Shown here: piece after piece, positions 1,431 through 30,128 of the stretch
Layout: each line of letters begins with the position of its first letter
How positions within the stretch are numbered: position 1 is the first letter of the stretch
Origin: an uncultured Selenomonadaceae bacterium
Lineage (GTDB): Bacteria > Bacillota > Negativicutes > Selenomonadales > Selenomonadaceae
Assembly (NCBI GenBank): GCA_905234505.1
Contig: CAJOIA010000006.1
Coordinates: forward strand, 1 to 34,105
Direction of reading: 5' to 3'
DNA: 34,105 nt
Program-made: the position numbers and the translations under genes
Notes under the pieces: model-generated
Seen by the model: only the letters and a program-made list of their open reading frames with translations
What the model was told of the DNA's origin: nothing
Database searches by the model: none

Positions 1431-1517
1431 CGCCAACAGGATGTCGGCGCGAGCTTTTTTCTTTGCTACTTTCTTGCAAATGCAATGAGTAAGAGCATTT
1501 GCTCTCCAAAAGAAAGT
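1431..1517 (-). repeat. Copy G of the 3'-UTR hairpin repeat family (operon-internal, no T-run)
   Basis: Lies between livG and bioB, with its right end 5 nt from the livG stop. H3 is an outer stem ACTTTCTT (1468-1475) / AAGAAAGT (1510-1517) enclosing a perfect inner stem GCAAATGC (1476-1483) / GCATTTGC (1495-1502). H1 is CGCC-A-AC (1431-1437), loop AGGAT, GT-C-GGCG (1443-1449); on the transcript the loop reads ATCCT, as in the other copies. H2 is missing and there is no T-run, consistent with transcription continuing into bioB. The flank TTTTTTCTTTG...AAAAGAAAGTTGATA closely resembles copy A after rpsT. Confidence 0.7.
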
Positions 1518-6766: not shown

Positions 6767-8044
6767 GTGGTTAGGAAGATATTGGCGAGTCTCCTCATTT
6801 TTTTGTTAATGACTTCGATAGGTGAGGCGGCTGATTTGACGAACAAAACTGAAGTAAAAAATTTGCGGTACAGCTTAACGCCTGGCAAAGTGCGAATTGT
6901 AGTTGATATGAGCAGGCAAGTTGAATATACCGAAACTTATTTAGAATATCCTTCGCGGCTGATTGTTTCTTTCAAAAATACTTGGATTGACGTTAAAAAA
7001 ATGAAGAAAGACATTGAGATAAATTCTTCGGCGGCGAGCAGGATCAAAGTCGCGCAGTACGACCCGACGACTGTCCGCGTAGTTATTGAAACAGTTGCCG
7101 CTACAAATTTATTCTGGCTGAGCGGCGGACCGAGCGGGCAAAGATTTGTTATCGATTTAACAGATCCAAATTTCGTACCAGAGCCTGAGCCCGAAACTAA
7201 AAAGTCTGAAACTAAAAAGTCTGAAACTAAAAAGTCTGAAACTAAAAAAACCGATACCAAGAAAACAGACGATAAAGAAATTGACGAACCTTTTACCAAC
7301 AAAATTGAAAATGAAACGCCAAATACTTACAAAGAAGACGACCGCAAACCGAGCAAACAAGAAGATAAAAAATCCGACAACAAAGATAATAAGTCCGATG
7401 AAAAAATTTCCAGCGGCGATAAAAATTTGAGCGAGCTTGACAAAGATTTGGAAAATATAACTGGCTTGAAGGGCAAAATTATTTGCATAGACGCGGGGCA
7501 CGGTGGCGGCGATTCTGGCGCTATTGGACCAACCGGCGTCACTGAAAAATCTGTTACGCTTAGAATTGCGCTTGAGCTTGAGAAACTTTTGAAAGACGAA
7601 GGCGCAAAGGTTGTAATGACGCGGCGTACTGATAAGCAAGTTTCGTCTAAAGGCGATAAAGCTTCCGCTATTGAAGAATTGCAGGCGCGTTGCACTGTGG
7701 CGAATCAGGCTAAGGCTGACATTTTCATTTCAATTCACGCTGATAGTTTTACAAATCCAACGGCGCGCGGTACCACTGGATATTATTTCGCGCAGAGCAC
7801 CGGCAATAAATCTTACAAGTTGGCTGATGCTATTAGGAAGGCTCTTTGTGAACAACTGCGGACGCCAAGTCGCGGCACTAAAACTTGTACTTTTTACGTC
7901 GTGCGTCATACCGATATGCCCGCTACGCTGATTGAGCTTGCCTTTATTTCAAATGTTGACGAAGAAAAACTTTTAAATTCTGAAGAAGGCGTCAAGAAAG
8001 CGGCGCAAGGAATTTTAGACGGCATTGAAGATTATTTTGGATAA
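6767..8044 (+). CDS. N-acetylmuramoyl-L-alanine amidase with AMIN domain
   Basis: Secreted peptidoglycan hydrolase that cleaves the MurNAc-L-Ala bond, AmiC-like. The GTG at 6767 (behind GAGGGGG) gives VVRKILASLLIFLLMTSIGEAA, a signal peptide. Residues about 25-125 form an AMIN domain (VKNLRYSLTPGKVRIVVDMS ... RFVIDLTDP), which targets septal or envelope sites. Residues about 130-225 are a charged Lys/Asp/Ser linker with SETKK repeats. The C-terminal Amidase_3 domain starts at KIICIDAGHGGGDSGA (zinc His), continues with EKSVTLRIALEL (zinc Glu), ISIHADSF (zinc His) and TLIELAFISN (catalytic Glu). 425 residues; the permease stops 19 nt upstream and trpS starts 12 nt downstream. Confidence 0.93.
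   Translation: MVRKILASLLIFLLMTSIGEAADLTNKTEVKNLRYSLTPGKVRIVVDMSRQVEYTETYLEYPSRLIVSFKNTWIDVKKMKKDIEINSSAASRIKVAQYDPTTVRVVIETVAATNLFWLSGGPSGQRFVIDLTDPNFVPEPEPETKKSETKKSETKKSETKKTDTKKTDDKEIDEPFTNKIENETPNTYKEDDRKPSKQEDKKSDNKDNKSDEKISSGDKNLSELDKDLENITGLKGKIICIDAGHGGGDSGAIGPTGVTEKSVTLRIALELEKLLKDEGAKVVMTRRTDKQVSSKGDKASAIEELQARCTVANQAKADIFISIHADSFTNPTARGTTGYYFAQSTGNKSYKLADAIRKALCEQLRTPSRGTKTCTFYVVRHTDMPATLIELAFISNVDEEKLLNSEEGVKKAAQGILDGIEDYFG
7193..7252 (+). repeat. 15-bp tandem repeat in the amidase linker (about 4 units)
   Basis: Unit GAAACTAAAAAGTCT starts at 7193, 7208, 7223 and, diverged, at 7238, encoding ETKKS steps. Because 15 is a multiple of three, unit gain or loss changes linker length without a frameshift. 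Confidence 0.85.
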
Positions 8045-9097: not shown

Positions 9098-9125
9098 AAA
9101 AAAAGCCGCCCAAGGACGGGCGGCT
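9098..9125 (-). terminator. Intrinsic terminator of rpsT (H1 of copy A)
   Basis: Eight-bp GC-rich stem with loop GTCCTT followed on the minus strand by seven T (plus A at 9098-9104). It points away from rpsT; no T-run follows in the trpS direction, so trpS has no obvious terminator of its own here. Confidence 0.85.
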
Positions 9126-9205
9126 ATGCGGCGCGCTAGTTGTCGTGATGCAACTACCCGCGCCGCGTTTTTCTTTGTAACTTTCTTTTACTATAAAAGA
9201 AAGTT
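9098..9205 (-). repeat. Copy A of the 3'-UTR hairpin repeat family (rpsT 3' end)
   Basis: In rpsT sense, H3 is a perfect 12-bp stem TAAAAGAAAGTT / AACTTTCTTTTA (9194-9205 and 9179-9190) with a 3-nt loop, 4 nt after the rpsT stop. H2 pairs GCGGCGCG (9128-9135) with CGCGCCGC (9159-9166), with inner stem TAGTTG / CAACTA. H1 is AGCCGCCC / GGGCGGCT (9104-9125), loop GTCCTT, followed by T7. Same order as the other copies with different stem sequences. Confidence 0.75.
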
Positions 9206-9754: not shown

Positions 9755-12046
9755 ATGATGCGTTCCCTGTTTTCTGGAGTTTCCGGATTAAAATCTCATC
9801 AAACGCGAATGGACGTTATTGGTAACAACATTGCAAACATTAACACAATCGGTTTCAAATCCAGCCGCGTGACTTTTTCTGATATGCTTTCGCAAACATC
9901 TTCGGGCGCTTCTGCTCCGAGTACAAATCTTGGCGGTATCAATCCTAAGCAAATTGGTCTTGGCGCTAATGTTGCCAGTGTTGATATGGTCTTTACAGAT
10001 GGCTCGGCTCAGGCTACCGGTAAAAATACAGACGTTACTATAAACGGCAATGGACTTTTTGTTTTAATGAACGGCGATAATTATTACTATTCTCGCGACG
10101 GCGCGTTTGAATTTGATACAAATGGCAATTACGTTTTGCCTGGCAGCGGTCTTTATGTTCAAGGCTGGAATGCTACTGAAGGTTTATTGAATACTAATGC
10201 TGTTCCAGAAAATATTGTTGTTCGTAGCGGGCAAACCATGGGCGGCACTCAAACTACTAATGTTGATTATTCCGGCAACGTCAATTCTGCCTCGCCAATG
10301 GTTACAGGCATTAGCTATACTGCGGGAGGCGGCACTGCAGATCCTACTTCAGTTTTGGAATTTAGAACTGTTTCTGAAATTCGAGTTATGGATGCTCTTT
10401 ATATGACTTACGACGAACGCGTTATGACCGCAACAATTACCGCCAAAGCCGATGGCTCAACTGAAACTATTGACCTTAGCACCATTACTGACTCTACAAC
10501 AAATGAAGCTTGGGCGCCCACGCATAATACTCGCTATGCAAACAGCGGTTCGGGGGCAAATGTCACCATTAACGATACAAAGTACACCATTCAACGCATC
10601 GATTATACTCTTGACGAAAATGTTAAAACTCTTACTGACGATACTTATGTTACTTTCACTTTATCAAATGGCTCAACCGTTACCTTGACGGCGTCGGCTA
10701 CTGAAAACGGTTTTACACCTGGTTCAACTTTCCAACTCGGCAGTTCTTTTTCAGATATAGCAACCGGTGACGCGGCAATTTTAACGGGCGTTTCAACCGA
10801 TATTGTTAACGCCAATCTGGAAGAAACCATTACTAAAATTGAAGTAAGAGACAGCCTGAATCAATCGCACGTTTACCCAAATTCTATCAGCTATAACGCG
10901 GGTAATACCGTTAAAGTGCAATATACCAATGGCGACCTAGAAACGATAACTTCAGGCACGTACAGCGTTAATGAGACTATTTTTGACTCGGTTAATGTTG
11001 ACGGCGTTAATGTCATTGCGGCGACTTTAACCTTGAGCGACGGCTCTACTCAAAAGGTTACCAGTGGTTTTTATCAGCGCAATCACAGTATACCCATTAC
11101 AACCATTGCGACAATTTATGACTCTGAAGGTAATTCTCATGCCGTGCCTGTTCTCATTGATAAAGACGCTTCAAGTTATGATCAAAATATTACTTCCGAC
11201 GCTTTGACTATGGCGCGGGTTGTTGACGAAGAAGGCAACAATATTAACTATACAACTTTGGACGTTGAAACTGATGATGAAGGCAATTTAACAAATTATG
11301 TTGTCACAATGAGCGATGGCACTACAGAAACAGTTGACCCCGACCAAGTGTCTTGGGATAATCGCTGGCGTGTATATATGGCTCCGACTGAAGGCAAAGC
11401 GGGTCCCACGTATAAATTTTCATTCAGCGAAACAGACGGCTCGACGATTAGCGGATATTTGAATGTTGTTATGGACGAAGCAAGCGGCAATCCGGCTGAT
11501 GGCGCTCCTACTTATGTTTATTATAATGAAGATGGTACTTACAATGCCTCCGCTACTCAAGGTTCGTCGCTTTATACCGTTTATTCAAATGGTAATGGCG
11601 CTTCACCAACAACTTCTTCATTCACTTTTGATAATACTACTCAATACGCGGGCAATACTACTGTTTATGCAACTTCCGACGGTAATGCTTATGGCATTTT
11701 AACCAGCATTGAAATTGACGCTGCAGGTATTATTACCGGCTCTTATTCAAATGGTATTCTTCGCACTGAAGCCCAAATTGCAGTCGCGCAGTTTGTCAAT
11801 TCCGCCGGTTTGACTAAGGTTGGTACCAGCCTCTATCAACAATCGAATAACTCCGGTACTGCGAATATTAAAACTGTTGACGCGCTTGGTCTTTCATTGA
11901 CGCCATCGTCTTTGGAAATGTCCAACGTTGAACTTGCCTCTGAACTCGCTGATATGATCGTTACTCAGCGCGGTTTCCAATCCAATTCAAAAATTATGAC
12001 CGTTGCCGATGAAATGCTTGAGACTATTATTAATACTAAGAGATAA
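9755..12046 (+). CDS. flgE: Flagellar hook protein FlgE
   Basis: Extracellular subunit of the flagellar hook. The N-terminus MMRSLFSGVSGLKSHQTRMDVIGNNIANINTIGFKSSRVTFSDML is the conserved D0 rod/hook signature, and the C-terminus VELASELADMIVTQRGFQSNSKIMTVADEMLETIINTK is the matching D0 helix. FVLMNGDNYYYSRDGAFEFDTNGNYV is the FlgE/F/G core. At 763 residues it is much longer than the roughly 400 residues of enteric FlgE; the extra length is a Thr/Ser/Gly-rich central region (about 180-680), presumably enlarged surface domains. AGGTGA lies six nt before the ATG at 9755. No other flagellar gene is adjacent. Confidence 0.95.
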   Translation: MMRSLFSGVSGLKSHQTRMDVIGNNIANINTIGFKSSRVTFSDMLSQTSSGASAPSTNLGGINPKQIGLGANVASVDMVFTDGSAQATGKNTDVTINGNGLFVLMNGDNYYYSRDGAFEFDTNGNYVLPGSGLYVQGWNATEGLLNTNAVPENIVVRSGQTMGGTQTTNVDYSGNVNSASPMVTGISYTAGGGTADPTSVLEFRTVSEIRVMDALYMTYDERVMTATITAKADGSTETIDLSTITDSTTNEAWAPTHNTRYANSGSGANVTINDTKYTIQRIDYTLDENVKTLTDDTYVTFTLSNGSTVTLTASATENGFTPGSTFQLGSSFSDIATGDAAILTGVSTDIVNANLEETITKIEVRDSLNQSHVYPNSISYNAGNTVKVQYTNGDLETITSGTYSVNETIFDSVNVDGVNVIAATLTLSDGSTQKVTSGFYQRNHSIPITTIATIYDSEGNSHAVPVLIDKDASSYDQNITSDALTMARVVDEEGNNINYTTLDVETDDEGNLTNYVVTMSDGTTETVDPDQVSWDNRWRVYMAPTEGKAGPTYKFSFSETDGSTISGYLNVVMDEASGNPADGAPTYVYYNEDGTYNASATQGSSLYTVYSNGNGASPTTSSFTFDNTTQYAGNTTVYATSDGNAYGILTSIEIDAAGIITGSYSNGILRTEAQIAVAQFVNSAGLTKVGTSLYQQSNNSGTANIKTVDALGLSLTPSSLEMSNVELASELADMIVTQRGFQSNSKIMTVADEMLETIINTKR

Positions 12047-12060
12047 TAAATAAAAACGCA

Positions 12061-12176
12061 TTTCTTTCTTTTACACCAAAGAAAGAAACGCTAAAGCAAA
12101 GAAAGAAAACTCCCGCGCAAGAGTCGCATCACGCGACTCGGCGCGGCAATGGCGCTCATCCGTGAGCGCCTTTTTT
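12061..12176 (+). repeat. Copy B of the 3'-UTR hairpin repeat family (flgE 3' end)
   Basis: H3 is a perfect 11-bp stem TTTCTTTCTTT (12061-12071) / AAAGAAAGAAA (12078-12088), starting 14 nt after the flgE stop. H2 is CCGCGC (12113-12118), inner stem GAGTCGC / GCGACTC (12121-12127, 12133-12139), GCGCGG (12141-12146). H1 is GGCGCTC / GAGCGCC with loop ATCCGT and T6. The inner H2 stem has the same position as in copies C, D and F but a completely different paired sequence. Confidence 0.8.
12151..12176 (+). terminator. Intrinsic terminator of flgE (H1 of copy B)
   Basis: GGCGCTC (12151-12157), loop ATCCGT, GAGCGCC (12164-12170), then six T. The T-run overlaps the stop codon of the convergent HAD gene (12175-12177). 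Confidence 0.9.
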
Positions 12177-15911: not shown

Positions 15912-16078
15912 GAGCGCGCAGGGACGCGCGCTCCCGCGCCATTTTCAAGGATTGAAAATTTGCGCGGCTGTATATTATTTTTTTAATCACTCTTGTCTGA
16001 TCTCTCACGATCGATCCTACTTTTGTTTTTCTTTCTTTGCTTGGCGTTTCTTGCTTTTTACAAAAAGAAAGAAATGCC
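15912..16078 (-). repeat. Copy C of the hairpin repeat family (between divergent genes)
   Basis: H3 spans 16043-16078, with GGC / GCC clamps, pyrimidine/purine arms and a mid stem CTTTTT / AAAAAG. H2 is CCGCGC (15934-15939), ATTTTC / GAAAAT, GCGCGG (15962-15967). H1 is GAGCGCGC / GCGCGCTC (15912-15933) with sense loop GTCCCT; the T-run is reduced to a mixed TCTCTC tract. Unlike other copies it has no gene ending at its H3 side: it sits between the TtcA-like start and the CBS protein start, about 29 nt from the former. The linker between H2 and H3 matches copies D and F in part. Confidence 0.75.
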
Positions 16079-21887: not shown

Positions 21888-23126
21888 ATGACTGGCAATA
21901 GGGAGGTAATTACCGGCGGAGATTTTAAGCGCATGGTTTCCGGCGCGTACAGTGAATTTCTGCTCGAATACGAAAATATAAATGCACAACCTGGCGCGGG
22001 AACTTTACCAGGCACACACATTTTAAGGACAATGGGCGCAGCAGTTATGCCGCTTGCTGATGCTAAAGACGATAGCATAGGCGGCTTAAGTCGGCGAGTT
22101 GCAACGGCAGCTGTTTTCGGCGCGCGTGGCAATGCCGGCGTGGTTTTGGCGCAAATGTTTCGCGGCATTGGTACTGGCTTAATGGGTAAATATGACGCGA
22201 CCGGCTCGGAATTTGGCAAAGCTTTTCAATATGGTATTTTATATGCTCAACGCGTTTTGCCTGATAAAACTGAAAATCCTTTCATTACGGTTGCCAAGGC
22301 TGTTGCTAAAGGCGCTTATCGCGCAGTGCGTGGCGGTATGCCTATTGCCGAAATTTTGAGTAAAGCGATTAAATCTGGCGAAAAAATTATTTCAGAATCC
22401 GGCACGAATAACGCCAGCGCCAGCATTATGATTAGTTTTCTCAAGGGCTGTTTAAAAGGCTTGGACGGCAATTTCGTTTCGCCAACTGTAAGCTTATCAT
22501 TGGGGCTCGGCTCTCATAAAAATATGCCCGACCCGCGAAATGATCTAGTTCGTCCTTACTGCATTAGGCTTAGAATTAAAAGCTCCAATAGTAATATTCC
22601 GGAGCTTGAACGCCAAATGAAAGATATTAGTAGCTTTTCAATAGTTGAACGAATGAGCGGCGGACTCGATATTCACCTGCACACAGACCACGTCGGCAAG
22701 GCTATCGACCAAGCGCTTGGTTGGGGGCAACTCAAAGACGTTAAAATTACCAATATGAGCGAAAGTCACGTGTTGCCGATAAATGACGCGTTAATGAAAG
22801 TGGCAGCCCTTGCTGTTGCCAAAGACGCTGAAGAAGCTCAAAAATTGCAAGACTCAGGCGCCTCAATTTTAGTTTCTGGCTCTGAAGAATCTTCGCCCTC
22901 CACTGCAGAAATTGTCGGCGCTGCACATTCCGACCTGGCCTCAAGTTATGTTTTAGTTTCGTCCAGTCCAGATTATCGCCTAGTCTTTAAACAGGCTAAA
23001 AAACTTTTGGGTAATCGTGTAGAATTGGTTTTAACTGAATCCTTTGAAAATGCCATTGCCGCATTAAAAAAATTCTCTAAAACCCGCTCAGCTCTAGAGA
23101 ATGCTAATATTATGAATCAAATTTAA
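21888..23126 (+). CDS. Degenerate DAK2/FakA-like protein
   Basis: 412 residues, shorter than FakA/YloV (about 550). GARGNAGVVLAQMFRGI (78-94), NPFITVAKAVAKGAYRAVRGG and GTNNASASIMISFLKGCLKGLDG match the DhaL/DAK2-type helical domain of the fatty acid kinase component FakA, and the C-terminal part (FSIVERMSGGLDIHLHTDHVGKAIDQALGWGQLKDVKITNM) matches the region following it. However, the loop that in FakA reads VPDGDTGTNM and binds Mg-ATP is here AQPGAGTLPGTHI (33-45): the metal-binding aspartates are missing. Catalysis therefore looks doubtful; a regulatory or binding role is possible. Start ATG behind GAAGGCGG. Copy D of the hairpin repeat begins 3 nt after its stop. Confidence 0.8.
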   Translation: MTGNREVITGGDFKRMVSGAYSEFLLEYENINAQPGAGTLPGTHILRTMGAAVMPLADAKDDSIGGLSRRVATAAVFGARGNAGVVLAQMFRGIGTGLMGKYDATGSEFGKAFQYGILYAQRVLPDKTENPFITVAKAVAKGAYRAVRGGMPIAEILSKAIKSGEKIISESGTNNASASIMISFLKGCLKGLDGNFVSPTVSLSLGLGSHKNMPDPRNDLVRPYCIRLRIKSSNSNIPELERQMKDISSFSIVERMSGGLDIHLHTDHVGKAIDQALGWGQLKDVKITNMSESHVLPINDALMKVAALAVAKDAEEAQKLQDSGASILVSGSEESSPSTAEIVGAAHSDLASSYVLVSSSPDYRLVFKQAKKLLGNRVELVLTESFENAIAALKKFSKTRSALENANIMNQI

Positions 23127-23129
23127 TTC

Positions 23130-23302
23130 GGCATTTCTTTCTTTTTGTAAAAATAAAGAAACGCCAAGCAAAGAAAGAAAAACGAATTTTTAATCAATAG
23201 TTTAAGTTTTTACGAGAGCGATTAAAAAAATAATATACAGCCGCGCAAATTTTCAATCCTGAAAATGGCGCGGGAGCGCTCATCCTTGAGCGCTCTTTTT
23301 TT
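23130..23302 (+). repeat. Copy D of the 3'-UTR hairpin repeat family (best-preserved copy)
   Basis: H3 (23130-23165) has GGC / GCC clamps, TTTCTTT / AAAGAAA and TTTTT / AAAAA stems separated by single mismatches. A 75-nt AT-rich linker follows. H2 is CCGCGC (23241-23246), ATTTTC / GAAAAT, GCGCGG (23268-23273). H1 directly follows: GAGCGCTC, loop ATCCTT, GAGCGCTC, T7. It begins 3 nt after the FakA-like stop and ends 6 nt before the convergent purA stop. Confidence 0.85.
23274..23302 (+). terminator. Intrinsic terminator of the FakA-like gene (H1 of copy D)
   Basis: Perfect 8-bp stem GAGCGCTC (23274-23281 and 23288-23295), loop ATCCTT, then seven T. Confidence 0.92.
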
Positions 23303-23307
23303 GTCAT

Positions 23308-24594
23308 CTAGAATATGTTTTCAACTACAATTGTTTGATCTCTATTCGGTCCCACTGATACTATTCCTAATTTAATGCCTGTAACTTCCGCAAGCCGCTC
23401 TAAATATTTCTTAGCATTAGCAGGCAATTTCCCATATTCGCGAATCCCACTAATTTCACTCTTCCAACCTGAAAAACTCTCGTAAATCGGTTCAACCTGC
23501 GCGTATGTCTTTAAACTTGCTGGTACTTCATTAATAATTTCGCCGTTCAACTTATAACCCACGCACAATTTAATTTCCTCAAAACTGTCAAGAATGTCAA
23601 GCCGCGTCACCGCCATATAATCCATCCCAGAAATCTGCCCGGCATATTTCACAATGCAGGCGTCTAACCAACCTGTCCTGCGCGCTCGCCCCGTCACTGT
23701 ACCATATTCATGACCTACACTGCGCAGCTTTTCGCCAATTTCATTCAACTGCTCAGTCGGAAATGGACCTTCACCCACGCGCGTACAATAAGCCTTAACA
23801 ACACCTACAACAGCGTCAATTTTCTTAGGAGCAACGCCTGCCCCAACGCATACCCCGCCAGATACCGGATGACTCGCCGTTACATATGGATAAGTCCCAT
23901 AGTCAATATCCAACATCGTTGCTTGCGCACCCTCAAATAAAATCTTCTTGCCCGCGTCCATTTGCTCATTCAACAAAGTTATCGTATCACAAACATACGG
24001 CTTCAAACGCTCCGCATAACTCTCATATTCGCGCAGAACTTTTTCATAGTCAAGCGGCGCCTGATTGTAAATTTTTTCCAAAATCAAATTCTTCTGTGCA
24101 AGTACATCTTTCAATCGCGCGGCAAATTCTTCTTTGTCAATAAAATCACAAACGCGAATGCCAATCCGATCATCACGGTCAATATAACACGGCGAAATCC
24201 CGCGCCCAGTCGTCCCAATTTTTTTTGCACCGCGATTTTCTTCAGATAAATTGTCAAATAGTTTATGGTACGGCAAAACAACATGAGCGCGATTGGAAAT
24301 TTTAATGTTTGAAACATCCACGCCGCGCGCCTTCAAAGCATCCATCTCTTCAATTATGCACTGAGGATCTAAAACAACGCCATTGCCAATCACACAAAGT
24401 TTATCGCTGTACAAAATCCCCGACGGTATCAGGCGTAATTTATATTCTTCGCCATTCAAAGAAATTGTATGCCCAGCATTGGAACCACCGCCAAATCTAG
24501 CGATAACGTCAGCCTGTTCCGCTAAATGATCAACAATTTTGCCTTTGCCTTCGTCTCCCCATAAACTGCCAAGTATAACCGCAACTTTCGCCAT
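23308..24594 (-). CDS. purA: Adenylosuccinate synthetase PurA
   Basis: Purine biosynthesis enzyme that joins IMP and aspartate with GTP to make adenylosuccinate. From the ATG at 24594 it has 428 residues, the family length. GSLWGDEGKGKIVDHLA is the P-loop (usual GxQWGDEGKGK has Gln where this has Leu), FGGGSNAGHTI follows, then GRGISPCYIDRDDRIGIRV, LFEGAQATMLDIDYGTYPYVTASHP, TRVGEGPFPTE, TGRARRTGWLDA and SVGPNRDQTI. GAGGTG lies about eight nt before this ATG; an upstream in-frame extension to 24657 crosses the promoter. Convergent with the FakA-like gene. Confidence 0.97.
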   Translation of the reverse strand: MAKVAVILGSLWGDEGKGKIVDHLAEQADVIARFGGGSNAGHTISLNGEEYKLRLIPSGILYSDKLCVIGNGVVLDPQCIIEEMDALKARGVDVSNIKISNRAHVVLPYHKLFDNLSEENRGAKKIGTTGRGISPCYIDRDDRIGIRVCDFIDKEEFAARLKDVLAQKNLILEKIYNQAPLDYEKVLREYESYAERLKPYVCDTITLLNEQMDAGKKILFEGAQATMLDIDYGTYPYVTASHPVSGGVCVGAGVAPKKIDAVVGVVKAYCTRVGEGPFPTEQLNEIGEKLRSVGHEYGTVTGRARRTGWLDACIVKYAGQISGMDYMAVTRLDILDSFEEIKLCVGYKLNGEIINEVPASLKTYAQVEPIYESFSGWKSEISGIREYGKLPANAKKYLERLAEVTGIKLGIVSVGPNRDQTIVVENIF

Positions 24595-24628
24595 AATATT
24601 AACACCTCTCAAATTAAAATTCACGCTG

Positions 24629-24657
24629 ATAATAACGCGCGACGCCTTTCTTGTCAA
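24629..24657 (-). promoter_or_regulatory. Predicted sigma-A promoter of purA
   Basis: Minus strand TTGACA (24652-24657), 17-nt spacer, TATTAT (24629-24634), about 35 nt before the purA ATG. No purine riboswitch or PurR-type box was recognised. Confidence 0.75.
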
Positions 24658-24693
24658 TTAAAAAGCCGCGCTTTATGTATTCACCTTCACAAA

Positions 24694-24722
24694 TTGACAG
24701 AAATTTTTCAGTTAACTATAAT
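24694..24722 (+). promoter_or_regulatory. Consensus sigma-A promoter of the AGCS symporter gene
   Basis: TTGACA (24694-24699), 17-nt spacer, TATAAT (24717-24722): full consensus, 32 nt before the ATG. The -35 boxes of this and the purA promoter are about 37 nt apart, back to back. Confidence 0.85.
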
Positions 24723-24754
24723 TAACTCTGCAAATTTTTTAGGGAGGTATATTA

Positions 24755-26173
24755 ATGGATTTATCGCAGCTATTAAACGATGTGAATGACTTTGTCTGGG
24801 GACCAATAATGTTAGCGTTATTGGTCGGCACGGGCATTTTTTTAACAGTGCGTTTAAAATTTTTACCTTGGATAAATTTAATATATGCAGTGAAAATGAT
24901 ATTGCAGCCTAAAAAACAACATGCAGGAGACCTTTCGCCGTTTCAATCGTTAATGGTGGCGTTATCGGCAACAGTCGGCACAGGCAATATTGTGGGCGTG
25001 GCGACGGCAATGGTACTCGGCGGACCTGGCGCTATTATCTGGATGTGGATTAGCGCGGCGTTCGGTTTATCTACCAAGTACGGTGAATCAGTTTTAGCGG
25101 TTAAATATCGCGAAAAAAATTCAGTAGGCGAAATGGCGGGCGGACCTATGTACGCCATGAAAAACGGTATCGGCGGAACTTTCGGGCGCGTTATGGCGGC
25201 GGCATTTGCATTTTTCGCAGTTTGCGCGTCATTCGGTATCGGCAATATGACGCAGGCTAATTCAATCAGCTCAGCTTTTCAATCTAGTTTGGGCATTGAA
25301 ACTTGGCAAACTGGAATTGTGCTGGTGATTTGCTCGCTGATTGTTTTATTGCGCGGCGTTCAATCTATCGGCAAAGTTTCAAGCTTTATAGTACCTAGCA
25401 TGGCATTTTTTTATTTGCTGTTCACCGTGATAATTATTATTAAAAATTACGCGAACATTCCTGAGGGACTTGCGCTGATGTTCAAGATGGCATTTTCTAC
25501 TGAAGCAGTTGCAGGAGGCGTAGGTGGTTCAATAGTTGCCACGATGTTAACAGCGATGCGTTGGGGCGTGGCGCGCGGTGTTTTTTCAAATGAAGCAGGA
25601 TTAGGTTCTGCGCCAATTGCTGCTGCTGCGGCTCGTACTGATCATGCGTCGCGTCAAGGCTATGTTAATATGACGGGCACATTTTTTGACACAATGATAA
25701 TTTGTATGTTAACGGGCTTGGTTATAGCGAGTTCTGGGGTTTTGGGTACGGTTGACACTGAGAGCGGCAAATTAGTATCAGGTGCGCCGCTAACGATTTT
25801 AGCATTTAGCACAGTTTACGGCGAAGGCGCCAAATACATTGTATCGATAGCGCTTGCATTTTTTGCTTATTCGACGATTTTGGGTTGGGAGTATTACGGT
25901 GAGAAGTCATTGGAGTATCTTGTTAGCAATCGCAAGGTGATTTATTTGTACCGCACTATTTTTAGTTGTATCACATTTATTGGGGCGACGCAGACGTTGG
26001 ACGTTGTATGGAATTTTTCCGATACAATGAATGGCTTAATGGCGATACCGAATTTGTTATGTTTGCTGATATTGAATAACAAAATAGCCGAAGAATGTTT
26101 TCATTATCAGAAAGAAATAGTTGAAAAAGAAAAGCGAGGCATAGAAGTGGACTATCATTTGAACCGCCAATGA
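24755..26173 (+). CDS. Sodium/proton-coupled alanine or glycine symporter (AGCS family)
   Basis: Inner-membrane amino-acid carrier of 472 residues with about ten to eleven helices. Family hallmarks are GPIMLALLVGTGIFLTVRLKF, LSATVGTGNIVGVATAMVLGGPGAIIWMWISAAFGLSTKYGESVLAVKYRE, GGPMYAMKNG, TAMRWGVARGVFSNEAGLGSAPIAAAAARTDHASRQG and the ILGWEYYGEKSLEYL end region. These proteins import alanine, glycine or glutamine with sodium; which substrate cannot be told here. ATG start with GGGAGG seven nt upstream. Single gene with a strong promoter; convergent with the ROK kinase. Confidence 0.94.
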   Translation: MDLSQLLNDVNDFVWGPIMLALLVGTGIFLTVRLKFLPWINLIYAVKMILQPKKQHAGDLSPFQSLMVALSATVGTGNIVGVATAMVLGGPGAIIWMWISAAFGLSTKYGESVLAVKYREKNSVGEMAGGPMYAMKNGIGGTFGRVMAAAFAFFAVCASFGIGNMTQANSISSAFQSSLGIETWQTGIVLVICSLIVLLRGVQSIGKVSSFIVPSMAFFYLLFTVIIIIKNYANIPEGLALMFKMAFSTEAVAGGVGGSIVATMLTAMRWGVARGVFSNEAGLGSAPIAAAAARTDHASRQGYVNMTGTFFDTMIICMLTGLVIASSGVLGTVDTESGKLVSGAPLTILAFSTVYGEGAKYIVSIALAFFAYSTILGWEYYGEKSLEYLVSNRKVIYLYRTIFSCITFIGATQTLDVVWNFSDTMNGLMAIPNLLCLLILNNKIAEECFHYQKEIVEKEKRGIEVDYHLNRQ

Positions 26174-26204
26174 TAGTGGTTAGTGGTTGGTGATTAGTGG
26201 TTAG
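26174..26204. repeat. Short tandem 7-mer repeat after the symporter gene
   Basis: TAGTGGT occurs at 26174, 26181 and 26195 with a diverged TGGTGAT unit between, directly after the TGA stop. No function assigned. Confidence 0.6.
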
Positions 26205-26218
26205 AATTAAAATTTAAA

Positions 26219-26310
26219 GAGCGCGAGGAGCATGCTTTGCTAATGCAAACCACGCAGGATGAGCGCTCCCGCGCCATTTTCAAGATTTTACAAAAAAAGA
26301 AAGAAATGCC
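26219..26310 (-). repeat. Copy E of the hairpin repeat family (deleted and interrupted)
   Basis: A shortened copy 11 nt from the ROK kinase stop. H1 arms GAGCGC (26219-26224) and GCGCTC (26263-26268) are held apart by an inserted 31-nt module (26228-26258). H2 is cut after CCGCGCCATTTTCAAGAT and joins directly to the H3 right arm (CAAAAAAAGAAAGAAATGCC, ending 26310); the linker and H3 left arm are gone. The T-run is a weak TTTAAATT. Confidence 0.75.
26228..26258. repeat. 31-nt nested module, copy in element E
   Basis: Same length as and identical at 26 of 31 positions to the module at 28837-28867. Core GCTTTGCT...GCAAACC forms a small hairpin (TTTGC / GCAAA). Placed in the H1 loop here. Confidence 0.75.
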
Positions 26311-26321
26311 GATATTAAACT

Positions 26322-27185
26322 TTAAATTGATAAAAACCTAAAAAGAGCGCCGATTAAATTTGCGTCATTGCGGAATTTGCAGGGAACAATTTCGACGTGC
26401 GGCAAGTCAAAAGGACATTTTTCATAAACTTTTTCAAGATTCGCACGAATGGCGTCGATAAAACTTTCCTGCGCGCTGATACCTCCGCCAATTGCAATTT
26501 TTTCGGGGTCGACTATAACTTGAATATTAAAAATCTGATTAGCAACGTGACGCGTGAATTTGTCGAGGCAATTAAGCGCGTCATTTTCATTTTCAGCAAC
26601 CGCTTGGAAGAAAAATTCGCCACTCATATTTTCGGTTGACAAATTTTTAATCTGCGCATATTCTTTCAGCAAATCGGGGACGTTGCCTAATTCGTGAAAA
26701 ATTTTGTCGCCAACCACGCTAAAGCAAACCTCACCGGCTAAATTGTGTTTGCCCTTGTGCAATTCGTGATTTTTTATAAAAGCGCCGCCAATCGACGTAC
26801 CAAAAATCATGACAAATCCATCAGCAACATCAGCCAGCGCGCCAATTTTCGCCTCTGCATACGCCGCGCATTTAGCATCGTTTTCAATCGTAACTTTCGC
26901 GCCAGTGATTTTCTGTAATTCCTCAACCACATTGCAACCGTCATTGTATCGAAGCGCGCCGCTCGTTATGCAAATTCCCTTGTCCGCGTCGATAATTCCA
27001 GGCAAAGACATTGCAATTCCTTCGACTTCATTTGAATTATATAAATCGGCAAGGGCTTTGAAAAAATCTGCGCGACCAGTCATAGGCGTAGGAATTTTCT
27101 CAGCGCGTTTTAAAATTTCAGCGCGTTCATTCATCACGGCGGATTTAATAAACGTCCCGCCCACATCGATAACCAAAATCTTCAT
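26322..27185 (-). CDS. ROK-family sugar kinase
   Basis: Cytoplasmic kinase of 287 residues, ATP-dependent phosphorylation of a hexose or amino sugar. The N-terminal ATP motif is LVIDVGGTFIKSAVM, then GIAMSLPGIIDADKGICI, IENDAKCAAYAEAKIGA (catalytic Asp), FVMIFGTSIGGAFIKN and IAIGGGIS. The region after LAGEV, where many ROK kinases carry the zinc motif with three cysteines, reads CFSVVGDKIFHELGN and has no such cluster, so this is a zinc-less member like some beta-glucoside kinases. ATG start with GGAGG eight nt upstream. Only 25 nt separate it from the divergent ChrA start. Confidence 0.9.
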   Translation of the reverse strand: MKILVIDVGGTFIKSAVMNERAEILKRAEKIPTPMTGRADFFKALADLYNSNEVEGIAMSLPGIIDADKGICITSGALRYNDGCNVVEELQKITGAKVTIENDAKCAAYAEAKIGALADVADGFVMIFGTSIGGAFIKNHELHKGKHNLAGEVCFSVVGDKIFHELGNVPDLLKEYAQIKNLSTENMSGEFFFQAVAENENDALNCLDKFTRHVANQIFNIQVIVDPEKIAIGGGISAQESFIDAIRANLEKVYEKCPFDLPHVEIVPCKFRNDANLIGALFRFLSI

Positions 27186-27193
27186 ATTATCAA

Positions 27194-27203
27194 CCTCCAG
27201 AGG
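27194..27203. promoter_or_regulatory. Shared inverted ribosome-binding sequence between divergent genes
   Basis: CCTC-CA-GAGG: read on the minus strand it gives GGAGG for the ROK gene and on the plus strand AGAGGTG for ChrA. The 25-nt gap leaves no room for a promoter, so promoters must lie inside the coding regions. Confidence 0.6.
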
Positions 27204-27210
27204 TGTTTTT

Positions 27211-27774
27211 ATGGAAATTAAAATTGACGCAAATTTTTATTGGAAACTTTTTAAATCAACGTTCATTGTCAGCGCATTTACTGTTGGCGGCGGCTATGTC
27301 ATTATTCCGCTTTTAAAGGCTAAGTACGTTGACGAATATCATTGGATTAGCGACGAAGAAACGCTGAATATGGTGGCAATAGCTCAATCGACGCCTGGGA
27401 TTATGGCAGTTAATACCGCGATTATGCTCGGTTACAGAATGGCTGGCGTTCTCGGCGCGCTTACCGGTATGTTCGCAACGGTTTTGCCGCCGCTGATTAT
27501 TATTACCATCGTTGCAACTTTTTATGACTTAATCGCGCATAATGAAACCGTGCAATTAGTTTTGAAAGGTATGCAATGCGGCGCAACGGCTCTGCTCTTG
27601 AATGTGGCAATTGACCTGCTAAAAAAACAATGCGAAAAAAAATTAATTCTGCCGCTCGTGATAATTTTGGCAACTTTCGTAGCAAATGTTTTCTTAGACG
27701 CCAATATAATGGCGCTGGTGGCAATTGACGGCGTAATTGGATTTTTTCTCCTGCGCGATAAAAAATACAGCTGA
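27211..27774 (+). CDS. Half-size ChrA-type chromate transporter domain protein
   Basis: Integral membrane protein of 187 residues with a single CHR domain and about six hydrophobic segments. FKSTFIVSAFTVGGGYVIIPLLKAKYVDEYHWISDEETLNMVAIAQSTPGIMAVNTAIMLGYRMAG is the CHR signature (GGGYVIIPLL, SxPGxxAVN). The family includes chromate exporters but the physiological substrate of short-chain members is often unknown. Short-chain ChrA proteins are usually encoded as adjacent pairs; no partner is visible here. The ATG at 27211 has AGAGGTG upstream; the frame is open far upstream only as the antisense of the ROK gene. Its TGA directly abuts the whiA stop. Confidence 0.88.
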   Translation: MEIKIDANFYWKLFKSTFIVSAFTVGGGYVIIPLLKAKYVDEYHWISDEETLNMVAIAQSTPGIMAVNTAIMLGYRMAGVLGALTGMFATVLPPLIIITIVATFYDLIAHNETVQLVLKGMQCGATALLLNVAIDLLKKQCEKKLILPLVIILATFVANVFLDANIMALVAIDGVIGFFLLRDKKYS

Positions 27775-28656
27775 TTATTTCTGTCGAATTTCCTCCGCCA
27801 ATTTATGAATCAACTTGAAACGATAACTTAAACCAGGTCGCGTAATAAAAACTTTTTTAGCCAATTCAGCAACAGTACATTCCGGATTTTGAAGGCGCAA
27901 TTCCATAGTCTGCTTAAGTACTTCGTCAACCTCAACATTATTTTCAATGAGCAAGCGAATATCGGCAATTTGTTTTTGCGCGGTATCTATCGCCTTGTTA
28001 AGATTTGCCAATTCGCAATTTGTAATGCGGTTAATATTGGCGCGGACTTCTTTAAGATTTCGCGCAGCGTCAAAACGTTCAATCGCCTCATTAATGCCGA
28101 GCATCCACATAAAATCTAAAATAGAATCAGCGTCGCGCAGGTAAACAACAAAATCTTCACGTCGGACGCGCGCCACAGCCGCTAAATCAAGCTGTTTAAA
28201 AATTTTCTTAAGCAACTTAGCCGCTGATTCGCTGCCCGAAACAATTTCCAAATAATATTGAGATTCAGGGCGATTGACAGTACCGCCCGCCAAGAATGCG
28301 CCGCGCATATAAGCAATTTGCAACGCGTAACTGCGGGAAATTTCGCGTGAATTAACCGAGTTGAAAAAATCTTCAGCGTCGCTCGTTAAAAAGATACGCA
28401 CGAAATACCGCATAGATTTTATAAGATTCGTATTGCGAACAGCGGCAATTTCTTTTTTTGCGTCGGGATAGATTTTCTTGATTAAATTTATAACCTTCCG
28501 AACGACCGCCGCGTTGAGGCTTGAAAATTCAATGCGGCCTTCAATAGCATTACCGCCGATTTTAAAAATCGCCGCCAATTCTGCGCGCATACATTCTAAA
28601 TCGTTATCGAATTTCAGCGCTAATTCTTGTTTTACATTTTGAGCGTAAGATGGCAT
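27775..28656 (-). CDS. whiA: WhiA-type sporulation/cell-division regulator
   Basis: Probable DNA-binding protein of the WhiA family, 293 residues. It begins SYAQNVKQELALKF, contains the LAGLIDADG-like fold segment YMRGAFLAGGTVNRPESQYYLEIV, the family motif INRITNCELANLNKAIDTAQKQIADI and a C-terminal helix-turn-helix (LRLQNPECTVAELAKKVFITRPGLSYRFKLIHKLAEEI). ATG start with GGAGG seven nt upstream. The common partners rapZ and yvcK are not upstream; the gene stands alone behind copy F of the hairpin repeat. Confidence 0.93.
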   Translation of the reverse strand: MPSYAQNVKQELALKFDNDLECMRAELAAIFKIGGNAIEGRIEFSSLNAAVVRKVINLIKKIYPDAKKEIAAVRNTNLIKSMRYFVRIFLTSDAEDFFNSVNSREISRSYALQIAYMRGAFLAGGTVNRPESQYYLEIVSGSESAAKLLKKIFKQLDLAAVARVRREDFVVYLRDADSILDFMWMLGINEAIERFDAARNLKEVRANINRITNCELANLNKAIDTAQKQIADIRLLIENNVEVDEVLKQTMELRLQNPECTVAELAKKVFITRPGLSYRFKLIHKLAEEIRQK

Positions 28657-28696
28657 TTTATCGCCTCCGGCGTTATTGTACTATATTACCGCAAAT

Positions 28697-28725
28697 AAAA
28701 AAAGAGCGCTCAAGGATGAGCGCTC
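28697..28725 (-). terminator. Intrinsic terminator of the right-end operon (H1 of copy F)
   Basis: Minus-strand 8-bp stem GAGCGCTC, loop ATCCTT, then seven T. It separates the NlpC/P60 operon from whiA. Confidence 0.9.
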
Positions 28726-28836
28726 CCGCGCCATTTTCAGGATTGAAAATCTGCGCGGCTACCTACCTATTTCTTTATCACTCTCGTCTTAACTCGCACG
28801 ACCGATCCTATTTTGTTTTTCTTTCTTTGTACTAAA

Positions 28837-28867
28837 GAGCACGCTTTGCTTTCGCAAACCGCGCAGG
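28837..28867. repeat. 31-nt nested module, copy in element F
   Basis: Counterpart of 26228-26258, but located in the linker beside H3, not in the H1 loop. Five substitutions, no length change. Confidence 0.75.
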
Positions 28868-28880
28868 CGTTTCTTTATTT

Positions 28881-30128
28881 TTACAAAAAGAAAGAAATGG
28901 CAATACCGGTTAAGCAGTCGATTGTGGGGACACCTGCTGCATTTTCGTAGCTCAAATCTGAAACTAAAACTTTTCGCACGTAAATTTTATAACCCTCGCT
29001 GAAATAACTACTTGCCGCGTGGATCATAATGGTTTCGCCATTTTCGTCATTACCGAGTTTCATCATAACGTGACCAGGTTTAAAGAACAACGCACCAGTT
29101 GGAGCTCTATTTGCAATGTCAACGCGTTCGTCGTGTGTAACGTTATTAAATACCGCGAAAATCGGCATAGCGCCTTCCTGTTTATCGGCGTCGCGCGGAA
29201 TATTAATGCCCATACTTCGATAAACATCGCCGACAAAAGCCGAGCAGTCAACGCTATTGTCTAAGCCGCCCCAGCCGTACACGTCGCCCAAAAATTTGAA
29301 ACCTTGCCGCACGAAATTATTTTCCGTGCAATCCAGCCAGCCTAAATTTACATTGCCATCATTTGGAATTTTCGCCGTAACTTCGCGCAGTTCGCCATTA
29401 ACGCTAACCGGCAAATATGCAGTCCAAGCATTATCTTTAAAAGTATCGTCAACCAGCGGAATAACCGCGCCCATTTGAAAGCGCACAACTTTTCCAGCTA
29501 TGTTGACGAATTTTTTATTGTTAACGACCACAACAAAATTTTCAGGTTGGACGTATCTAAGCCAAGTGACTTTGTCAGTGAAGGCGAGCTGATTTTTATC
29601 AATCCAGCCAAAATAATTCCGCGACTGCGCGAAAACAAATTTGCCATCCTTGCTCGTCCATAAAACCGCAACGGGTTCAGCCGGATCTAAGGCTGTCCCT
29701 TGCGCGGGGTCGTATCTATCGCCACTGAAAGCTTGCGGCAAAAGTCTAATGTTAACGCGCTCCAATGTCACGGCGTAAAGCACCTTAACATCGGTTAGAG
29801 CATTTAAATTTCGATTTGCCATAACAGCCTCAGTGCCGTTCAATTTTACGTCGTCAGTTAATTTTAAAATTTGCGCCTTTAAATTCTTAGCTTTGATTTT
29901 TTCGGGATAATTCGCCAAATCCGCAGAATATTTATCGCGTTCAAGCATTTGCTCATTAAGCTCGGAAATTTTTTCAGACGTCAAAATAATTTCGTCGCCG
30001 TTCGCGTTTCTGTCAAGCCAATATTCAGGCGTTGAGCGCGCGTCGGTGATTTCAATCTGCGCGAATGCAGTCTTATTGCCAATAAAAAAAAGCACTACCA
30101 AAAGTGCTGTGAATAATATGCTTTTCAA
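28881..30128 (-). CDS. Secreted SH3-like / NlpC-P60 cell-wall peptidase
   Basis: 415 residues. MKSILFTALLVVLFFIGNKTAFA is a signal peptide. Residues about 35-130 are a helical N-terminal region, 130-270 carry SH3b-like units (VNIRLLPQAFSG, FAQSRNYFGWIDKNQLAF), and the NlpC/P60 domain shows FLGDVYGWGGLDNSVDCSAFVGDVYRSMGINIPRDADKQ (catalytic Cys), KPGHVMMKLG (His) and MIHAASSYFSEG (third residue). It should cut gamma-D-Glu-diamino acid links or a related peptidoglycan bond. TTG start behind GGAGGCGAT. The last nine residues (GIAISFFL and stop) are encoded by repeat copy F, so the native C-terminus appears replaced. 19 nt downstream of the Sel1 gene. Confidence 0.9.
   Translation of the reverse strand: MKSILFTALLVVLFFIGNKTAFAQIEITDARSTPEYWLDRNANGDEIILTSEKISELNEQMLERDKYSADLANYPEKIKAKNLKAQILKLTDDVKLNGTEAVMANRNLNALTDVKVLYAVTLERVNIRLLPQAFSGDRYDPAQGTALDPAEPVAVLWTSKDGKFVFAQSRNYFGWIDKNQLAFTDKVTWLRYVQPENFVVVVNNKKFVNIAGKVVRFQMGAVIPLVDDTFKDNAWTAYLPVSVNGELREVTAKIPNDGNVNLGWLDCTENNFVRQGFKFLGDVYGWGGLDNSVDCSAFVGDVYRSMGINIPRDADKQEGAMPIFAVFNNVTHDERVDIANRAPTGALFFKPGHVMMKLGNDENGETIMIHAASSYFSEGYKIYVRKVLVSDLSYENAAGVPTIDCLTGIAISFFL

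Follow-up and report, generated by a model that had tools for sequence, protein, structure and literature searches.

Triple helices encoded in bacterial genomes are known from the capacity of sequences to form them and from in vitro folding, and neither promoter nor terminator activity was seen with the E. coli motif, as far as the parts of Holder 2015 that concern the TM_ECO motif and report Hoyne and Maher 2000 and 2002 go (PMC4666352). According to the same parts, triplexes of the purine motif owe their stability to G-G-C triads and were reported not to form in RNA. The BoxC/PIT element/TM_ECO motif, an intrastrand triplex motif of class II, consists in that account of a pyrimidine block, a purine block, and a second purine block, and it is intergenic, present in many copies, and patchy among related genomes (PMC4666352). 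The element described here has the same order of blocks and is likewise intergenic, multicopy, and patchily distributed. We analyzed it in a stretch of 34,105 nucleotides from an uncultured Selenomonadaceae bacterium, hereafter the window. Our best explanation, to which we give a probability of about 0.6, is that it is a modular multicopy element of gene ends, with a terminator tail, a head capable of forming a triplex, and copies that are replaced in place by a spreading subtype.

Copies in the window and in their genome

A first-pass annotation of the window had proposed seven copies of one architecture composed of three hairpins, H3, H2, and H1. Related sequence was present at all seven places (Table 1), and copies B, C, D, E, and G contained the three hairpins in full. 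The common architecture did not extend to copy A, which lacks H2, or to copy F, in which half of H3 is missing and only the 3' arm of H2 is left. The annotation had also overlooked two features of the head: a mirror block that follows H3 and, within H3, an A.C mismatch, the latter shared by all 28 own-genome copies in our alignment. In copy E, H3 contains this mismatch and one mismatch within the arm, and the third block, read from the sequence, is the mirror image of what a perfect R arm would be.

Table 1. Element copies, parts of copy E, and neighboring genes in the window
Feature	Position	Strand	Description
Copy E, H3	23130..23165	+	Outer stem GGCA/CGCC
Copy E, H3 inner arm Y	23134-23146		TTTCTTTCTTTTT
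Copy E, H3 inner arm R	23149-23161		AAAAATAAAGAAA
Copy E, third block	23170..23182	+	AAAGAAAGAAAAA; exact parallel complement of Y
Copy E, linker	23183..23240	+	In own-genome copies only, among the BLAST matches listed
Copy E, H2	23241..23273	+	Clamp CCGCGC/GCGCGG, inner stem ATTTTC/GAAAAT
Copy E, H1	23274..23302	+	GAGCGCTC-ATCCTT-GAGCGCTC, then seven T; terminator-like
Copy A	1431..1517	-	H3, third block, and H1
Copy B	9098..9205	-	Complete; arms CTTTCTTTT/AAAAGAAAG, third block AAAGAAAAA, H2, H1 with T-run
Copy C	12058..12176	+	Complete, short type, without the long linker
Copy D	15912..16078	-	Complete, E-type; divergent genes on both sides
Copy F	26219..26310	-	Deletion derivative; 5' arm of H3 joined directly to 3' arm of H2
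Copy G	28697..28898	-	Complete, E-type; palindrome of about 30 nt between H3 and third block
Gene upstream of E	21888..23126	+	Fatty-acid-kinase-A-like; Dak2 and FakA-like domains
Gene downstream of E, convergent	23308..24657	-	Adenylosuccinate synthetase
Gene upstream of C	9755..12046	+	Flagellar rod/hook-type protein

Palindromes of about 30 nt, of two kinds, are nested in H1 of copy F, in the linker of copy G, and in the H3 loop of copy A. They were also seen at loci L054, L066, L076, L077, and L097 and are common to different species; they seem to prefer hairpin loops. Elsewhere in the window, at 7188-7262, an ORF contains four to five tandem units of a 15-nt repeat (AGTCTGAAACTAAAA and variants).

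A BLAST comparison of copy E with the genome it comes from (1,792,840 bases in 97 contigs), in which 40 of 101 initial candidates were scored, returned at least 48 pieces at no fewer than 40 or so places, copy E included. At least 39 relatives of copy E were recognized, mostly near full length (about 175 nt), and the near-full-length copies were 79 to 91% identical to it, with one at 73%. In an alignment of 28 own-genome copies, whose mean column identity was 84%, 8 of the 31 pairs of H3, H2, and H1 pooled showed double-sided changes (25 cells), a level reached in none of 500 shuffles, in a control that ignores kinship among the copies, as do all our shuffles. Four of these 8 pairs lie in H1 and three in H2, each of the latter from single sequences. 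In an alignment of 31 copies from across the genus, one of which the window supplied, H1 covaried strongly, with 18 double changes at one pair. The automatic fold of this alignment left out H2, and its inner stem was tested as specified by hand: it showed double changes in 50 cells and scored 0.59 for covariation, versus 0.19 after shuffling (0 of 500 as high), while the tally of doubly changed pairs was not significant (145 of 500 shuffles). Together, these results establish that the element is a real multicopy family and that H1 and H2 covary, in agreement with the earlier proposal that pairing is kept while the stem sequences change.

H1 has the layout of an intrinsic terminator, a GC-rich hairpin followed by a T-run. 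At least four T within 8 nt followed H1 in 30 of the 39 own-genome copies and were lacking in three; in the remaining six the scan for T-runs fell short of H1, so that the layout was found in 30 of 33 assessable copies. We infer that H1 acts as an intrinsic terminator. In the window, the stop codon of a long ORF lies no more than about 16 nt before copies A, C, E, and F, the ORF upstream of copy G terminates inside H3, and copy B adjoins a putative ORF of 111 amino acids. The annotation had placed six of the seven copies at a stop codon. Copy D, which lies between divergent genes, counts against our best explanation. Copy D precedes a PP-loop gene on the minus strand, and an element occupies the equivalent place in two relatives (G005 and G055); it could be a leader terminator. 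Across the own genome, a gene on the same strand precedes 25 of 32 scored copies, in all 25 cases at 60 nt or less, and 17 of the 32 lie between convergent genes. The orientation described earlier, always that of the gene, applies to this genome in the main, but elsewhere only as a bias close to genes: 99 copies from other genomes, 8 of them within ORFs, were divided almost evenly (46 in the same and 43 in the opposite orientation), and the bias appeared only among copies within 60 nt of a gene (34 versus 14). This evenness is a further point against our best explanation.

The mirror block and pairing within the head

In the notation used here, the 5' arm of H3 is T(b)CT(a), the 3' arm is A(a)GA(b), and the third block is A(c)GA(d). 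A third block serving as a spare Watson-Crick partner would have c = a, a direct repeat, whereas a triplex strand folded back on the purine arm would have c = b, a mirror. Of 101 distinct copies, 99 had c = b; this set omits copies retrieved with patterns fixing the run length of the third block (1,000 shuffles gave a mean of 42 and a maximum of 55). One of the two exceptions, L286, is not convincing as a real element. Where mirror and direct repeat differ (a not equal to b), 63 of 65 copies followed the mirror and 0 of 65 the direct repeat, and additional G positions obeyed the mirror rule in single copies (L183 and L271). We accordingly rejected a switch that offers the third block to the 5' arm as an alternative Watson-Crick partner, since it requires a direct repeat. 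The arrangement found in the 99 copies, Y, R, and a second R in mirror register, is that of a class II intrastrand triplex motif.

Ordinary copying does not generate mirror repeats, and we know of no form of mirror repeat that is read by proteins in duplex DNA. The mirror block is explained most readily by a triple helix. H3 is more than a hairpin, namely, the 5' part of a predicted intrastrand-triplex motif, and the triplex may form in cells. Two observations stand against this. A single mismatch to Y is present in the R arm of E-type copies, whose third block is nonetheless perfect; this breaks one triad of 13 and counts against a strict triplex in the window. In addition, the blocks of the head, as read from alignments, are A/T-rich, of the TTTCTTT type, an objection to our best explanation given the reliance of purine-motif triplexes on G-G-C triads, and their reported failure to form in RNA, stated in the relevant parts of PMC4666352.

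In many relatives with a longer H3 loop, its 3' half can pair with the nucleotides directly after the third block. A loop/flank stem of at least 4 bp, wobbles allowed, was present in 93 of 158 distinct pairs (500 shuffles: mean, 33; maximum, 44), and this set contained 68 distinct stems, the longest of 8 bp. When only Watson-Crick pairs and one head per named-genome locus were counted, 39 of 65 heads were paired (1,000 shuffles: mean, 4.0; maximum, 11). All four Watson-Crick pairs are represented at each of pairs 1, 2, and 3 of the outer stem. Outer stem and loop/flank stem together are predicted to form an H-type pseudoknot with the mirror block as its long loop; its stem is 5 bp in 56 of 91 cases, its short loop is 3 nt in 57 of 91, and in 57 of 91 neither junction has an unpaired base. 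The putative pseudoknot of these many relatives, supported by covariation, was found at named loci of Comamonadaceae, Caballeronia, Lysobacter, Pseudomonas, Methylomonas, Neisseriaceae, Haemophilus, and Bacteroidota. The H3 loop of E-type copies, of 2 nt, is not long enough for it.

The molecule that folds might instead be the opposite strand, as an antisense RNA or single-stranded DNA, in an H-type pseudoknot like that of telomerase, with T.A-T and C+.G-C triads made by its pyrimidine loop. Such pyrimidine-motif triads can form in RNA, according to the parts of PMC4666352 that treat them, and they can form in DNA as well. This rather unlikely reading draws on the non-Watson-Crick pairs of the outer stem, since A.C pairs in the gene sense, which are G.T pairs on the opposite strand, prevail by 26 to 9 among 66 distinct stems, and pair 0, counted per copy, shows 51 A.C versus 0 in the gene sense. 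The rest of the element does not share this preference: no wobble asymmetry between strands was found in H2 and H1 (70 G.T versus 54 A.C, chance stems counted in), and there is no clear one in the pseudoknot stem (5 G.T versus 4 A.C). By reasoning, a 3-nt loop spanning the 5-bp stem would also be tighter on the opposite strand.

Distribution of the head and probable turnover at occupied sites

The head pattern occurred in 42 of 57 genomes of the genus, and its backward-read control in 0 of 57. A looser pattern was found in 55 of 136 genomes of the family, which belong to 8 of its 28 genera; its controls gave 0 or 1 match per genome for the most part and up to 11 where copies were most numerous. 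A stricter pattern was found in 2 of 299 genomes sampled from the phylum. In a scan of named genomes, at least 120 stretches came from many Burkholderiales and from some Pasteurellaceae, Bacteroidota, Clostridia, and Selenomonadaceae, including Quinella. The element belongs to a large superfamily that has a patchy distribution and the head as its defining feature, and what recurs across phyla is this head and not the three-hairpin layout. Archaeal matches to the pattern are absent from the 104 listed cores with loop-flank pairing, the first five of which look spurious, and were not counted as elements. The largest numbers of pattern matches in the search, 294, 676, and 842, came from three genomes of 2.4 to 2.8 Mb in another genus of the family (G111, G112, and G113). 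Hairpins with the conserved tip AAACTCG..CTCA(A/G)ACA come after the same head in Pasteurellaceae, Bacteroidota, Comamonadaceae, and other Selenomonadaceae (loci L131, L153, L230, L240, L248, and L251); the six conserved-tip strings were not found in the literature searched.

The window is collinear with contig C9 of G005 and contig C2 of G055. An element is present at all 7 window sites in G005 and at all 5 within the reach of the contig in G055, in most cases of another subtype. At site C, among the best 11 of 30 loci, five had the element in place (own copy counted), one had it inverted, four had a plain hairpin with a T-run, and one had neither, the last three classes being assigned by eye. 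At site E, 3 of 30 loci had the element at the stop codon (own copy counted, one by eye), one had it 60 nt further, one had an antisense copy, and 25 had none within up to 260 nt; the 25 include G024, where a plain terminator was seen by eye, and G052, where the sequence spans 4 nt only.

Subtypes are common to sites within one genome rather than to one site across sister species. The long linker of copy E, for example, is common to copies D, E, and G and was in none of the BLAST matches listed from 40 other genomes, for each of which no more than 20 candidates were scored. Sister species mostly have other subtypes at the same sites, and among the matches listed the linker was seen in the own genome alone; the E subtype therefore probably took the place of older elements at sites that were already occupied. 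We based replacement on the conservation of the window sites while the subtype changes, and mobility on the sharing of subtypes by several sites within a genome. At site G, the upstream gene ends before the element in G005 and inside it in the window, and CATT is common to both at the junction, as judged by eye; in our reading, the arrival of a new copy may have altered the end of this gene.

In Paraburkholderia, the head is found at both ends of imperfect palindromes of 600 bp, which are found at no fewer than 39 to 40 places on each megaplasmid of the seven best-matching records, mostly at positions common to strains and species. These palindromes differ in this respect from the 28 aligned own-genome copies, whose ends, read from the alignment, are not inverted repeats. 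They were also seen at loci L156, L161, L168, L214, and L221 and overlap no listed feature, in records of which most of those inspected carry almost no annotation. One Paraburkholderia copy (L367, around 38049-39527) contains an insertion of about 1.48 kb, probably an insertion sequence, whose flanks overlap by 8 nt. Insertion polymorphism in Paraburkholderia was considered as a sign of mobility and discarded, because the copies lie mostly at common positions and most apparent absences look like errors of flank projection; at site car64 117428, a candidate absence, the region has been replaced in P. largidicola. No clean empty site was seen at the window sites in the sister species or in the Paraburkholderia comparisons.

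Competing explanations and related systems

In our preferred explanation, the tail hairpin H1 would terminate transcription of the preceding gene, and H2 would be a variable connecting hairpin. The head would be a pyrimidine-purine hairpin to which the third block aligns, completing an intrastrand triplex as its third strand; in many relatives the loop would pair past the third block as well, giving the H-type pseudoknot for which the E-type has no room. Copies would be replaced in place by the subtype now spreading in the genome while sites persist between sister species. The head is probably recognized by the copying machinery, and replacement may proceed through this recognition, or else the head would act as a stabilizer of the 3' end. 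A wider claim, to which we give somewhat less than even odds, is that a natural triple-helix pseudoknot, present in several bacterial phyla and maintained by three-strand mirror covariation, stands at the head of a superfamily of dispersed elements; in the genus of the window it would have been joined to terminators, and copying of the current subtype would rewrite gene ends throughout the genome. A third strand that covaries in mirror fashion across phyla would constitute evolutionary evidence of selection on a triplex fold. The family also opens two questions that can be tested: what the triplex head contributes to the terminator, and by what route a single subtype reaches dozens of gene ends in one genome while their positions remain fixed.

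Several features could also suit a primarily selfish, nonautonomous, MITE-like element in which the head, folded on single-stranded DNA, signals transposition and any terminator activity is a by-product of insertion next to genes. Pattern matches reach 465 plus 377 in one 2.4-Mb genome, a figure inflated by overlapping matches; the distribution is patchy (2 of 299 phylum genomes, and many Burkholderiales with some Pasteurellaceae and Bacteroidota among the matches listed); the overall orientation outside the own genome is even; and palindromes of about 30 nt are nested in copies. We nevertheless consider this explanation unlikely, as the sites are conserved in sister species and largely also between Paraburkholderia strains and species, and as neither an empty site, nor inverted-repeat ends in the 28 aligned copies, nor a linked transposase was seen. 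Mobilization of a REP/BIME-type element by a RAYT (Y1) transposase would likewise fit palindromic, intergenic, high-copy sequences, yet PF01797, searched for in 57 genomes of the genus (the higher-copy genus g13 lying outside this set), was found in only 7 of them, 6 above the cutoff. It was not found in the own genome or in the three genus genomes with the most pattern matches (G033, G047, and G009), and G028, with 129 matches, has a partial one; RAYT mobilization was therefore disfavored and is very improbable. The appearance of such a family by chance or composition, from AT-rich hairpins close to gene ends, is refuted by the backward-read control, which was 0 in 57 of 57 genus genomes, and by the absence of the stricter pattern from 297 of 299 phylum genomes, and we regard its probability as negligible.

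None of the Rfam 15 covariance models reached its gathering threshold on the element: the comparison gave tRNAs only in the window, with nothing at E<=1 in 22900-29200, and tRNAs and RF02421 only in 18 relatives, where RF02421 touches just the edge of a Caballeronia copy. A phage collection, searched with the low-complexity filter on, yielded no match to the element, and no description of the family was found in the literature covered, from which subscription papers were mostly absent. The first-pass annotation knew of no named family with this layout, and the Rfam comparison agrees. It had left a choice between a structured 3'-UTR RNA family and a small mobile repeat adapted to gene ends. Each of these alternatives gained support, from the many more copies (at least 39 relatives of E by BLAST, and the head pattern across the genus), the covariation of H1 and H2, the lack of an Rfam match, and the sharing of subtypes within a genome; what the proposal missed was the putative triplex/pseudoknot head.

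REP/BIME sequences are intergenic palindromic repeats, as is the element, but the element differs from them by its putative triplex/pseudoknot head and by the lack of a RAYT in the three genus genomes with the most matches. Telomerase RNA contains a pseudoknot with a major-groove triple helix. The opposite strand of the element resembles it in having a pyrimidine loop along a pyrimidine-purine stem in an H-type fold, a resemblance only, since no template or link to a reverse transcriptase is known for the element. Intrinsic (Rho-independent) terminators share with H1 the GC-rich hairpin and T-run at gene ends, and plain ones occupy the equivalent site in some relatives; in contrast to them, the element has a conserved head and H2 and occurs as a dispersed family. 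The TM_ECO consensus CCCTCNCCC..GGGNGAGGG..GGGNGAGGG was not found in the head blocks as read from the alignments. As characterized in the parts of PMC4666352 at hand, the BoxC/PIT/TM_ECO motif is G/C-rich with short loops, whereas the element is A/T-rich and mirror-covarying. Neither loop-to-flank pairing nor a terminator hairpin is described for the motif there, whereas the element is predicted to be pseudoknotted in many relatives; and neither promoter nor terminator activity was seen with the motif, whereas own-genome copies of the element have a terminator-like tail hairpin (PMC4666352). Altogether, the systems that the element most resembles are the class II triplex motifs of the BoxC/PIT kind and plain intrinsic terminators.
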